DNA of 64,000 nucleotides from Phaeocystidibacter marisrubri (GTDB taxonomy: Bacteria; Bacteroidota; Bacteroidia; Flavobacteriales; Schleiferiaceae), in the NCBI RefSeq assembly GCF_008933165.1, contig NZ_WBVQ01000002.1, positions 767,569-831,568 on the forward strand, in the 5' to 3' direction. Both the position numbers and the translations under genes were made by a program. Shown here piece by piece: positions 7,427-47,960 of the stretch. Positions within the stretch are counted from its first letter, which is position 1. Each line of letters opens with the position of its first letter. Under the pieces are notes generated by a model. That model was given only the letters and a program-made list of their open reading frames with translations. It was not told where the DNA came from and searched no databases.

Positions 7427-7599
7427 GATTCGGCAAAATTCCACATTCTCGACTGAATGGCCTACAAAAGTGCCCACGACTTTTGTAGAAGCAACACCCC
7501 TATCACAAACTAATCCACTCAACATCAAATCTTTGGATATCGAATGATTGATTGCATACAGACCACTCAAGAACTCTACTTTCCCTCTATCTTCGCGGT

Positions 7600-9474
7600 A
7601 TGAATATCCTATCGGTAGAGCAACTCAAGAAGAGTTTTGGCGAGCGTGTCTTGTTTGAGAACCTCACATTCGGAATGGCTGAACGCGAAAAAGTCGCGCT
7701 TGTCGCTAGAAATGGCACAGGTAAGACGTCCCTCCTTCGCATTTTGGCCAATGAAGAGATGCCCGATGATGGACGAGTAGTAACTCGAAAAGATCTACGT
7801 GTAGGCTACCTCAAGCAAGAGCCCGAATTTCCTGCGGGAATTGAAATCATGCAGTGGCTTCTCACGCTTGAACACCCATTGTTGAAAGCCGTCATCCGAT
7901 ACAAGGAGTCTCTAGAGAATCCTGCCAAAGCAGGTGACATGACCGATAGTTTAAGTGAAATGGAGCGTCTCAATGCTTGGGATACCGAATCTCGACTAAC
8001 GGCCATTCTCGACAAGCTGAACTTAAAGGACATTCACGCCAAGGTAGACTTGCTAAGTGGTGGACAGAAGAAGCGACTCGCCTTAGCTGGATTGCTTTTG
8101 ACCGAGCCGGATTTCCTCATTCTCGACGAGCCGACCAACCACCTCGACCTTGATATGATTGAGTGGTTAGAAGGTTGGCTGTCTGATGCTCCTTTTGCCT
8201 TGTTGATGGTTACGCACGACCGTTATTTTTTAGAGGCTATTTGTACTACCATCTACGAGCTTGAAGATGGAGAACTTTACAAGTACGATGGTAACTACAG
8301 CTACTACCTCGAGAAAAAGGAAGAGCGCGCCCAAACCCAGCAATCCAATATCGAGAAGGCGAAAAACATCTACAGAAGGGAGCTCGAATGGATTCGTTCC
8401 ACCCCTCAAGCCCGAACCGGAAAGAGCAAAAGCCGAATCGACAGCTTCAAGAAAGTAAAGCAAGATGCCCACAAGCAAGTTCAAAACAAGCAGGTGGAAA
8501 TCGATGTAAAAATGGAGCGTCTAGGCAGTAAAATCTTAGAGCTTCACAAGGTAAAAAAGGCCTACGGCAACTTGCCTATTCTCAACGGCTTCTCCTACAC
8601 CTTTAAAAGAGGAGATTGCATTGGTATGGTTGGAAAAAATGGAGTTGGTAAATCCACCTTCCTTCGACTTATCACCGATTCTGAAGAAGCAGATGGCGGA
8701 AAAATCATCACAGGTGAAACCGTTCGTTTTGGGTTCTATCGCCAGGATGGAATGCAATTGAACAATGACAAGCGCGTCATTGAGGTCATTAAAGAAATAG
8801 CCGAAGTCATTCCACTTGCCAAGGGGAGGAGTATGACGGCTAGTCAGCTACTAGAGCGCTTCCTATTCGAGGGAGATCAGCAATACACCTTTGTGAGCAA
8901 ACTAAGCGGTGGTGAAAAAAGACGATTGTACCTCCTCACCCTATTGATGGCTAATCCCAACTTCCTCATTCTGGATGAGCCGACCAATGATCTCGACATA
9001 TTAACCCTCAATGTCCTTGAAGACTTTCTGTTGGATTTTGAAGGCTGTTTGGTCATTGTGAGTCACGATAGGTACTTCCTGGATAAACTCACCAATCACC
9101 TCTTCATTTTTAAGGGGAATGGCGAGGTTAAAGATTTCAATGGGAGTTATTTAGAGTATCGCGAAGAGCTTGCGATTGAACAAGAAAAGAAGCGAGAAGC
9201 TCAGAAACTCTATACCGCTCCTAAGAAAGAGGTAAGCAGGCCGAAACGCGAAAAGACCAAGCTCAGCTACAAGGAAGAGCGTGAGTTCGAAGAGCTTACT
9301 GCAGAAATAGAAAAGCTCGAAGCTCGAAAAGTAGAGATTGCGAAAATCTTTGAATCACCCGATGTAGAAGCTGGAGAAATTGAACAGCTGTCTATTGAGA
9401 TGAATCAATTGACAGAACGCCTTGACGAAGCTGAAATGAGATGGCTGGAACTCAGTGAATTCACAGAGGAGTAG
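7600..9474 (+). CDS. ABC-F family ATPase (Uup/EttA type)
   Basis: A 624-residue cytosolic protein with two ABC domains and no membrane segments. The first has Walker A ARNGTGKTS, signature LSGGQKKR and Walker B LILDEPTNHLD; the second GKNGVGKST, LSGGEKRR and LILDEPTNDLD. The domains are joined by a charged linker, and a coiled-coil C-terminal extension of about 90 residues favours the Uup subgroup. ABC-F proteins act on ribosomes. The start at 7600 begins MNILSVEQLKKSFG directly; the ATG at 7552 is too far upstream. The last 14 bases overlap the convergent GyrI-like gene. Confidence 0.92.
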   Translation: MNILSVEQLKKSFGERVLFENLTFGMAEREKVALVARNGTGKTSLLRILANEEMPDDGRVVTRKDLRVGYLKQEPEFPAGIEIMQWLLTLEHPLLKAVIRYKESLENPAKAGDMTDSLSEMERLNAWDTESRLTAILDKLNLKDIHAKVDLLSGGQKKRLALAGLLLTEPDFLILDEPTNHLDLDMIEWLEGWLSDAPFALLMVTHDRYFLEAICTTIYELEDGELYKYDGNYSYYLEKKEERAQTQQSNIEKAKNIYRRELEWIRSTPQARTGKSKSRIDSFKKVKQDAHKQVQNKQVEIDVKMERLGSKILELHKVKKAYGNLPILNGFSYTFKRGDCIGMVGKNGVGKSTFLRLITDSEEADGGKIITGETVRFGFYRQDGMQLNNDKRVIEVIKEIAEVIPLAKGRSMTASQLLERFLFEGDQQYTFVSKLSGGEKRRLYLLTLLMANPNFLILDEPTNDLDILTLNVLEDFLLDFEGCLVIVSHDRYFLDKLTNHLFIFKGNGEVKDFNGSYLEYREELAIEQEKKREAQKLYTAPKKEVSRPKREKTKLSYKEEREFEELTAEIEKLEARKVEIAKIFESPDVEAGEIEQLSIEMNQLTERLDEAEMRWLELSEFTEE

Positions 9475-9949
9475 CTCTATTTTTTACGGGAATCCAGATT
9501 TCTTCTTCCGAGTTTGGATCATGGTTCGAATACCTCTCTCCCATTACTGCAAAATGAGGGCGATGATCGAGTTGATATCCTGAAGCAGGCAACCAGGTTT
9601 CAAAAATATAGCCATAAGTCTTAGGCCCTTCTTCAGGCGTACCCTTGTGCAAAAACACCGCATACATGCCGGCTGGGGACGTGAGCTTCGCCATCCCATT
9701 CGGAATAGATGTAGACTCCACAACCTCCACTGCTGCCCACTTTTCAAATTCGCGAGTAGGATCGAAGGATTGAAAGAAGTCATTGGGATACCGCTCTATG
9801 GAGAAAAGCAAGTCATTCTTAGGCTGTAACTCACCTTTCTTCGGCATAAATCTCTGCCAGAGTTCGCGCGTTTGATTCGTAGCAAAGGACATGTGCATCT
9901 TCATTCCAACCCATTCGCGCTGGGCACACTCTTCCATTCGTAAATACAT
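9461..9949 (-). CDS. GyrI-like small-molecule-binding domain protein
   Basis: A 162-residue protein resembling the effector-binding domain (GyrI/Rob C-terminal type) without a DNA-binding part. Indicators are the beta-rich pattern, the repeated W-residue segments and the ending EEIWIPVK, which is typical of the family. Stand-alone members have been described as drug-binding or hydrolase proteins, but the ligand here is unknown. The start could be 9949 or the Met at codon 5. Its 3' end overlaps the ABC-F gene on the other strand. Confidence 0.72.
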   Translation of the reverse strand: MYLRMEECAQREWVGMKMHMSFATNQTRELWQRFMPKKGELQPKNDLLFSIERYPNDFFQSFDPTREFEKWAAVEVVESTSIPNGMAKLTSPAGMYAVFLHKGTPEEGPKTYGYIFETWLPASGYQLDHRPHFAVMGERYSNHDPNSEEEIWIPVKNRATPL

Positions 9950-10019
9950 GGAGTCAAGATAAGCAGAAGTGACTTCGTAATAAAAATCCTATCCCTTAAC
10001 TTATACTGCTCAAACAAAC

Positions 10020-10487
10020 ATGTACATGACAACAGTTAATGCCTATCTGACGTTCAACGGCAATTGTGAAGAAGCATTTGAATTCTACCGATCGGTGTTT
10101 GGGGGTGAGTTTCCCTACGTTGGCCGATATGGCGACATGCCCATTCTTGAAGGTCAGCCTCCACTGCCAGAACACCTTAAAAACAAGATCATGCACATCA
10201 GTCTTCCCATCAGTGCGGAAACGAGTATCATGGGAAGTGATGCGGGAGGTGCATGGGCAGAGAAGGCGACTATTGGAGACAATATCACTCTATCTATCAA
10301 CACAAAAGATCCTGATGAAGCCAAGAGGTATTTTGACCAGCTATCTGCAGGAGGAAAAGTGAAAATGCCGTTTGAGCTCACCTTCTGGCATGCGTACTAT
10401 GGGTTGTTCACAGACAAATTTGGAATCAATTGGATGGTGAATTGTGAAACAAGCGATCACGAAGCGTACGAGAAAGGTCAGAAATAA
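10020..10487 (+). CDS. PhnB-like VOC-superfamily protein
   Basis: A 155-residue protein of the PhnB/glyoxalase-like (vicinal oxygen chelate) family. It opens with the family-typical TVNAYLTFNGNCEEAFEFYRSVFGGE and ends with a WHAYYGLFTDKFGINWMVN segment. The canonical metal-binding residues are not obviously all kept, as is usual in this subgroup, whose members mostly lack a known reaction. ATG at 10020 and an in-frame ATG at 10026 are both possible. Confidence 0.82.
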   Translation: MYMTTVNAYLTFNGNCEEAFEFYRSVFGGEFPYVGRYGDMPILEGQPPLPEHLKNKIMHISLPISAETSIMGSDAGGAWAEKATIGDNITLSINTKDPDEAKRYFDQLSAGGKVKMPFELTFWHAYYGLFTDKFGINWMVNCETSDHEAYEKGQK

Positions 10488-10883
10488 CAAATCCTCCCAA
10501 CGAACAAGAATGTGAACGATGGGAGGAAATGTAATCTTCCGAGTAACCTGCATCAAGTAATACTCGGATGGAGGATGGAGAGACCTATTTTCCATCCAGG
10601 GATTGACGGGACTGAGATAGTCCCAATCAAGAAAACGGAGGGTGAATCATGCGAGAGGGATTCCTTCTCTCCGCTTCCCAACTACTAACCTTACTACGAC
10701 ACTTGAAGGGATATTAACTCTATTTCTCGCATAAGCACAGAGACTGTACTTCCGTTCTTCAAGATCATGTCAAAGAAACCCCTTCCAAATCTTCTATTTG
10801 TCAGTATTTTACTTAAATGTCCATCACGAAATCTCTATTCTTTTGTCAGTCTTTCACTGAATTGATACTCATTCCCTCCAACC
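10488..10883. other. Gene-free interval with five consecutive hairpins
   Basis: No convincing gene. Between 10492 and 10673 five inverted repeats follow one another: 10492-10499/10520-10527, 10538-10545/10561-10568, 10573-10579/10591-10597, 10608-10613/10619-10624 and 10636-10648/10659-10673. The arrangement suggests a structured RNA on one strand, but no known RNA family motif (tmRNA, RNase P, SRP) was seen. The part after 10690 shows nothing notable. Confidence 0.5.
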
Positions 10884-11342
10884 ATGAAGCATTACGGAAT
10901 TCTTTTGACCCTTGTTTTTACTTCCTGCGCCCTTTTTAAGTCGCCCATAACCGATCCCATGCCCACGTTTCTACCCGATGTAAAATGGGAAATGGCCTCT
11001 TGGGAATTGGAAGAAACCCATCGACTTAGATTGATTCATTCCCGAGACTTCCGAGAAGTATACCAAGAGAGCAATCACAAACTATCATCCTTTGGCGTAG
11101 ATAACATCATCTTCTATTTTGCCGTGATTGAAGGCAGGGGTGATCGTCCGCTTTATGAAGTCATTGTAGATTTCACCTCAGAAGAAGCGAGAGATAACTA
11201 CGCGCATGATCACTTAGGCGAACCGAATACAGAAAATGGGGAATGGGATTTCACGACAGAAGGTGCTCATTATCGAGCATGGAAATTCCAAAAGAAGCTC
11301 GTAGTCGTCAAGGTAATTCCCGGATGTGAATGGGACGAATAA
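10884..11342 (+). CDS. Small lipoprotein, function unknown
   Basis: A 152-residue protein with a short signal ending in lipobox FTSC (Cys about 15), so a probable lipoprotein. The mature part is alpha/beta and acidic, with several conserved-looking aromatic residues. I do not recognise the family. It is followed after 75 bases by the orphan ABC ATPase gene on the same strand, so the two could be cotranscribed. Confidence 0.7.
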   Translation: MKHYGILLTLVFTSCALFKSPITDPMPTFLPDVKWEMASWELEETHRLRLIHSRDFREVYQESNHKLSSFGVDNIIFYFAVIEGRGDRPLYEVIVDFTSEEARDNYAHDHLGEPNTENGEWDFTTEGAHYRAWKFQKKLVVVKVIPGCEWDE

Positions 11343-11417
11343 ATTCTACCTTTAGAGGAATATCAGTTTCCAGTGCTCTTTAGTACATTAGTCGACCAAC
11401 AAGAATCGAATACACCT

Positions 11418-12104
11418 ATGTCCAAGCCCATCATACAACTCGAAGGAATCAAGCGGAATTTTGAATTGGGCAAGGTGACCGTAAAAGTTCTGATGGGCAT
11501 TGATCTCGTCATTGAAGAAAACGAATACGTCGCTTTGATGGGACCGTCGGGTAGTGGCAAATCCACATTGATGAACTTGTTGGGTTGTTTAGATACCCCC
11601 ACTTCGGGCAAATACCTGTTGAATGGAACGGATGTGAGTGGATTGAGCGACAACGAATTAGCCGATATCAGAAACAGAAATATCGGTTTCGTATTCCAAA
11701 CCTTCAACCTTCTGCCTCGCCAAACGGCATTGGACAACACCGCTCTTCCCCTTGTCTATTCCGGGGTTGGAAAAACAGCTCGAAGGGCAGAAGCAGCTAG
11801 CGTACTCCATCAGGTTGGACTAGGCGACCGAATGGACCATCAGCCCAACCAGCTCTCTGGAGGACAACGCCAACGCGTAGCGATTGCCCGTGCTTTAGTA
11901 AACAAACCCGCACTCATTTTGGCCGATGAACCAACTGGTAACCTCGACTCCAAGACTTCTGTGGAAATCATGCAATTGTTTGATGAGATCCACAAAAAGG
12001 GCAACACCATTGTACTGGTCACACACGAGGAGGAGATTGCCCAGCACGCCAACCGAATCATACGCCTCCGTGACGGTCAGATTGAAAGTGACGAGAGAAA
12101 ATAA
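11418..12104 (+). CDS. ABC transporter ATPase, LolD/MacB type
   Basis: A 228-residue ATPase with Walker [10 protein letters not shown] (residues 42-50), signature LSGGQRQR, Walker B LILADEPT and the H-loop VTHEEE. The size and sequence place it with LolD/FtsE/MacB ATPases that drive lipoprotein release or MacB-type export. The ATG at 11418 is chosen over 11373 because it starts immediately before the domain. No cognate FtsX/MacB-type permease is encoded beside it, so its partner must be elsewhere. Confidence 0.9.
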
Positions 12105-47562: not shown

Positions 47563-47563
47563 T

Positions 47564-47781
47564 GGTGGCTGTTGGCATTGAGAGGTGAGAGATGGGCTTT
47601 GAGGGATGTATGATGTCTGAAGTTTGGTGACTGGTGACGGAGGTTTGGTGTATGTGGCCTGGTGACAGGTGACAGAAGCTCGAGGCCTGGTGTATCAAGG
47701 CCTAAAGTCTGGCGCATGGTTCCTAGCAGCTAACCCACGCCCCAAGGGGCTGCGTACCCGCAAGCCCCAGTCTCAAGTTCG
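47564..47781. repeat. Dispersed intergenic repeat, copy B
   Basis: Starts GGTGGCTGTTGGC directly after the SDR stop and ends with CTAACCC, AGGGGC, CCCGC, GCCCCA, then TCAAGTTCG at 47730-47781. Between are degenerate short units such as GGTGACTGGTGACGGAGG and CTGGTGACAGGTGACAG. It shares both end blocks with copy A at 18364-18479. The rest of the gap to 47960 shows no gene. Confidence 0.65.
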
Positions 47782-47960
47782 GAAGAATATTGACTACACA
47801 CCAAAGGATAGACGGATACAAACGATTGCAAATGGAATGAGGGTCTTCCTAAAATCATAGACTCAACCTTATTCCATATCCCTGGTAAATTTTGCGCTCT
47901 GAGATTGGACACTTTCCAAAATGAGTCCTCGATTTTTGTGATAACCCAAACCTCACAAAA

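Follow-up and report, generated by a model that had tools for sequence, protein, structure and literature searches.

Genomic context of the hairpin array

The window, i.e. the whole 64-kb stretch of Phaeocystidibacter marisrubri DNA analysed here, contains an array of hairpins in a gap bounded by two plus-strand open reading frames, a VOC gene (10020-10487) and a gene for a small protein with a lipoprotein-like N-terminus (10884-11342). Further out lie an ABC-F ATPase, which we take to be Uup, and an ABC-transporter ATPase, presumably LolD (Table 1). The uup-lolD gap is conserved in all three Phaeocystidibacter genomes, those of the window, G001 and G002; the latter two are the only other members of the genus among the genomes searched, and the comparison is thus one of three genomes. 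Two species of the genus carry names in the taxonomy, and genome sequences exist for the type strains of both (PMC7214798). Uup of the window is 86% identical to that of each relative; the uup-lolD gaps themselves have diverged almost past alignment. Between uup and the array the window carries a GyrI-like/Cass2 gene and the VOC gene (together 9461-10487), both missing there in the two sister genomes. They look like an insertion; neither sister genome contains a match to the VOC gene, and the uup-lolD loci of the sisters contain none to the GyrI/Cass2-like gene. A minus-strand open reading frame of 84 codons (10341-10595), without a Pfam match up to E 1, overlaps the 3′ half of the array, and stops interrupt all three minus-strand frames in G001 and G002.

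Table 1. Features of the uup-lolD locus in window coordinates; arms are those of the inverted repeats, numbered along the plus strand.
Feature	Position	Strand	Inverted repeat and arms	Basis or remark
ABC-F ATPase (uup)	7552..9474	+		left flank in all three genomes
Proposed sRNA gene	10478..10771	-		three orthologues compared by synteny, leader, loop B and fold; core 10478-10691
Hairpin A, proposed terminator, T-rich tail TTTGTTATTT	10478..10527	-	1: 10492-10499/10520-10527	fold and tail
Hairpin E	10538..10568	-	2: 10538-10545/10561-10568	fold; different hairpins in the same place in both relatives
Hairpin B, loop AAATAGGTCTC	10573..10597	-	3: 10573-10579/10591-10597	loop ATTAGGTC in relatives; loop unpaired probability 0.99
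Hairpin M	10601..10628	-	4: 10608-10613/10619-10624	fold; counterpart in relatives weak or doubtful
Hairpin C	10634..10675	-	5: 10634-10640/10669-10675	fold; arms compared across species
Leader start AGGTTAGTAGTT	10680..10691	-		first 12 nt of the 22-nt leader that G001 and G002 share unchanged
Possible 5′ helix D (CTTGAAG/CTTCAAG)	10702..10763	-		inverted repeat
Direct-repeat pair TTTGTCAGTxTTTxACT (TTTGTCAGT)	10797..10864	+		45 bp apart, between RNA and lipoprotein-like gene
Small protein, lipoprotein-like N-terminus (by eye)	10884..11342	+		no Pfam match; a relative was found in G002 but not in G001
ABC-transporter ATPase (lolD)	11415..12104	+		right flank in all three genomes

The first-pass annotation had described five consecutive inverted repeats in this gap between two plus-strand genes, and the arm pairs of all five were located, between 10492 and 10675. 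The segment 10480-10690 folds far more stably than shuffled sequence, with a minimum free energy z of -4.80 on the plus and -4.66 on the minus strand and none of 200 shuffles as stable on either strand. Against a background of 257 plus-strand windows, each 180 nt long and shuffled 60 times, taken from 37 gaps in 204 kb that comprise the 64-kb window and seven 20-kb stretches of the same genome, with open reading frames called by a custom rule, the array window (z -4.59) ranks third by z. Above it stand a tRNA-Met with a terminator-like hairpin (L033) and a structured gap in L038. Under a custom counting rule, five hairpins were scored in 5 windows and four in 31 of the 257, and the array itself scores four or five according to the start chosen for the 180-nt window; it is therefore unusual in stability, not in hairpin number. 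The gap in L038 (16317-16496, z -4.8) has a terminator-like hairpin and more inverted repeats, and no tRNA was found in it.

A conserved order with fixed leader and loop

Read on the minus strand, all three genomes present the same order of elements: leader, hairpin C, a middle part, hairpins B, E and A, and a T-rich tail. From leader to tail the segment spans 228 nt in G001 (z -5.04), 223 nt in G002 (z -4.84) and 214 nt in the window (z -4.69), with 0 of 200 shuffles as stable in each case. The same gap in the two sister genomes is thus equally structured with mostly different stems, which supports the suggestion of a structured RNA made from the window alone.

Two short elements are shared at the sequence level. 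The minus-strand leader run AGGTTAGTAGTTAGTAGGTAGG is identical at 22 of 22 positions between G001 and G002, and the window keeps its first 12 nt just 5′ of hairpin C. In the 64-kb window the array is the only place that holds a 12-mer of this run; of 20000 shuffled gaps, 4 contained any such 12-mer. Across 88 family genomes, a 17-mer of the leader (at most 1 mismatch) is found in three, namely G001, G002 and G020; allowing 2 mismatches, the leader pattern is no commoner than its reversed control. In gaps beside uup in more distant genomes, the complement of the leader (15-mer, within 3 mismatches) has one match, in L055, and none in L031, L032, L052, L053, L054, L056 or L067. The second element is the loop of hairpin B, A[A/T]TAGGTC, which reads ATTAGGTC in both relatives and AATAGGTC in the window, and the TAGGTC loop belongs in 3/3 genomes to the third hairpin counted from the 3′ end. 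Mean unpaired probability is 0.88-0.99 for this loop and 0.44-0.61 for the leader, which is accordingly predicted to be partly unpaired. Other parts are less constant: loop A is AGGTGGTCTC in both relatives and is not kept in the window, and hairpin M is not conserved in the window either, its counterpart in the two relatives being weak or doubtful.

Change of stems between species

In stems B and C most positions differ between species, and pairing is kept in each. Native pairs are complete in stems A (21/21), B (21/21) and C (27/27), a perfection that follows by construction because the arms were chosen to pair in each species; with arms swapped between species, 36/42, 23/42 and 29/46 pairs form, respectively. 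These swap counts would indicate compensatory change only if the helices are homologous, a homology suggested by leader, loop B, order and synteny. Between G001 and G002, 9 of 18 pairs in shared columns changed on both sides, 4 of the 9 (outer helix A) resting on a judged one-base misalignment.

A covariance search, which the first-pass annotation had proposed as a check, recovered the locus faintly. Model R1, built from G001 and G002, did not include the window locus among its matches up to E 10 with default filters in 273 kb, and with stricter filters over 88 family genomes the genome of the window was not listed at E up to 1. With filters off, the window locus was the top of 16 matches in 3 kb, although with a weak score (8.6 bits, E 0.01); this minus-strand match spans the model from end to end but is interrupted by large unaligned blocks. 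The second-best match in these 3 kb falls on hairpin C on the plus strand (5.5 bits). Family-wide, R1 gave matches in G017, G063 and G077, and that in G017 lies inside an open reading frame and was taken as chance.

Most stems consist of Watson-Crick pairs only and are unrelated in sequence, and the VOC and GyrI/Cass2-like genes lack the sister matches described above, a combination compatible with a function at the level of DNA or with a mutational origin, the hairpins being single-stranded-DNA signals or template-switching by-products devoid of any RNA role. We regard such a function or origin as unlikely, given that equal structure, the leader and the loop motif are present in sisters that have no VOC gene, and that the array is single-copy. 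Integron attC sites, whose core site motif is RYYYAAC, were likewise discarded: the motif is absent from the array, and the 3.2-kb locus holds 6 against 6.0 expected.

Strand, termination and neighbouring genes

On the minus strand hairpin A is followed by TTTTTTT in G001, by TTTTTT in G002 and by the weaker TTTGTTATTT in the window. A consensus terminator scan listed hairpin A in none of the three species, because it allows loops of 3-8 only. Folding energy in G001 is -88.5 on the minus versus -70.5 on the plus strand (z -5.04 versus -3.77), and in G002 -80.5 versus -71.6 (z -4.84 versus -4.33). The window species shows little difference in folding between its strands, and its hairpin B acquires G-U pairs when read on the plus strand. 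Minus-strand G-U pairs are found in stem B of G002 and, in the window, in stems C and E. Taken together, the T-runs and the folding energies of the relatives make the minus strand, on which neither flanking gene lies, the more likely one. Upstream of the leader, at 63 nt in G001 and 54 nt in G002, stands a promoter-like TACATTT(A/G) (TACATTTA/TACATTTG), judged against the Bacteroidota -7 promoter consensus; no convincing counterpart was seen upstream of the leader in the window.

If the plus strand were the functional one, the array would belong to the VOC gene, or in G002 to uup, as its structured 3′ UTR or terminator region. Hairpin A indeed begins at the fifth base past the VOC stop, the plus strand is well folded in all three species (z -4.8 in the window, -3.8 in G001, -4.3 in G002), and in both relatives hairpin A ends at a plus-strand TTTT or no more than a few bases from one. 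This is nevertheless improbable in our judgement, since in G001 the neighbours on the hairpin A side have the opposite orientation, in G002 a terminator-like hairpin of uup separates that gene from the structure, energy favours the minus strand in both relatives, and no T-run is seen at the plus-strand end of the array.

The gene past hairpin A is VOC in the window, uup in G002 and a 195-aa gene in G001, convergent in the first two and codirectional only in G001. That the terminator-side gene differs across the three genomes speaks for a free-standing RNA. In G001 the array could also act in cis on a downstream minus-strand gene, as its leader or attenuator, since the 195-aa gene begins about 75 bases past hairpin A on that strand; this reading is very unlikely overall, as the convergent VOC and uup genes leave nothing to attenuate in two of the three genomes. 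Of the three options, leader, 3′ UTR and free-standing RNA, the last is therefore the most likely.

Searches for known families and further copies

The earlier statement that no known RNA motif fits holds for Rfam 15: there are no matches at the gathering score in the entire 64-kb window, and at E up to 5 all matches at the three loci are far below their own gathering scores. No tRNA or tmRNA was found in the 64-kb window. The other half of the earlier interpretation, a composite repeat, found no support, as the array segment is single-copy in its own genome, has a BLAST match in 1 of 40 genomes (its own, none of the 39 others) and is without 7-bp periodicity. A dispersed, REP-like repeat was rejected on the same copy number and BLAST result, a heptamer repeat on the lag-7 z of the array (0.44), and a phage or plasmid origin by the lack of matches in phage or plasmid records. 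Strong 7-bp periodicity does mark two other gaps, window 47563-47960 (z 7.1) and L037 8066-8233 (z 6.6), both made of degenerate heptamer repeats.

Hairpins travelling with the VOC gene were also considered and rejected, since neither the leader 12-mer nor TAGGTC was present on the minus strand at any of 8 VOC-homologue loci. The 220 nt past the eight VOC-homologue matches gave z values of -3.3, -5.1, 0.4, 0.6, -0.7, 0.3, 0.4 and -1.0; the two low-z loci (L004, L005) show, by eye, a terminator-like hairpin with a T-run, not the array.

6S-Flavo RNA (RF01685) is likewise a noncoding RNA of Bacteroidetes, but it has no match at the array locus, and the best candidates of this genome and of G002 map elsewhere. 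These candidates, G000:C1:1403654-1403795 (37.4 bits) and G002:C28:109871-110012 (39.7 bits), set against a gathering score of 85, are possibly a divergent 6S RNA of the genus; none was found in G001.

A candidate small RNA of Phaeocystidibacter

The array probably forms the body of a so far undescribed small-RNA gene that occupies the minus strand of the uup-lolD gap and is kept in three Phaeocystidibacter genomes. Most likely, the product is an intergenic sRNA, about 215-295 nt long and specific to the lineage. The 5′ extension of the gene to about 10771 is tentative, and the 5′ part with helix D has z values of -1.3 to -1.9 in the three species, not significant alone.

To our knowledge, few small RNAs have been described in Bacteroidota outside Bacteroides. 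Protein-sponge RNAs of the CsrB/RsmZ type consist of a row of hairpins with a repeated short loop motif, their loops carrying GGA; the array resembles such a row, but its conserved loops are TAGGTC or AGGTGGTC rather than GGA. In the accessible parts of the open-licence literature on the genus, on flavobacterial structured RNAs, on Flavobacterium dRNA-seq and on Bacteroidetes sRNA together with lolD, no description of this RNA was found. The FopS sRNAs of Bacteroides thetaiotaomicron combine a conserved single-stranded 5′ seed with a terminator hairpin, and they act as repressors of mRNAs at sites close to the start codon (PMC11697453); FopS and GibS are likewise sRNAs of Bacteroidota, most of them intergenic. 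FopS RNAs are, in the same source, about 65-70 nt long, with 14 paralogues and one terminator hairpin (PMC11697453), whereas the array is present in one copy, measures 215-295 nt and has five or six hairpins. The resemblance to FopS and GibS is one of analogy, not of membership.

Minus-strand transcription would start upstream of 10691, pass through the leader AGGUUAGUAGUU... and hairpins C, M, B and E in that order, and end at hairpin A, acting as an intrinsic terminator. The RNA may work through its leader, which is predicted to be unpaired in part, and through AGGU-type loops, which read AAUAGGUC or AUUAGGUC in hairpin B and, in the relatives, WAGGUGGUCUC in hairpin A; short AGGU-type sites would be exposed by leader and loops alike. 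Leader and loops could base-pair with mRNAs or bind an RNA-binding protein, the stems serving mostly as scaffold. The genome of the window encodes an RRM protein (G000:C1:1173344), and RRM is the fold family of the Bacteroides sRNA-binding protein RbpB. As a guess, the TTTGTCAGT repeats might form an operator shared by the RNA and the divergent lipoprotein/lolD genes. It is tempting, although doubtful, to go further and propose a new genus-restricted class of sRNA in which the leader and one or two loop motifs are fixed and the stems almost free, which would act via repeated AGGU-type sites and, through an operator shared with the lipoprotein/lolD genes, be linked to lipoprotein export.

A candidate with fixed position, conserved leader and loop, and changing stems offers a target for the study of sRNA function in marine Flavobacteriales, and illustrates that synteny can lead to a candidate RNA gene missed by BLAST and barely seen by a covariance model.

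A search with the 17 bases of the direct repeat, allowing up to 2 mismatches, returned both copies and nothing else in this genome, one site in G001 at the same locus and one in G002 elsewhere. Similar repeat pairs, about 23 bp apart, are seen by eye in the same place in G001 and G002, the sites of G002 being weaker.
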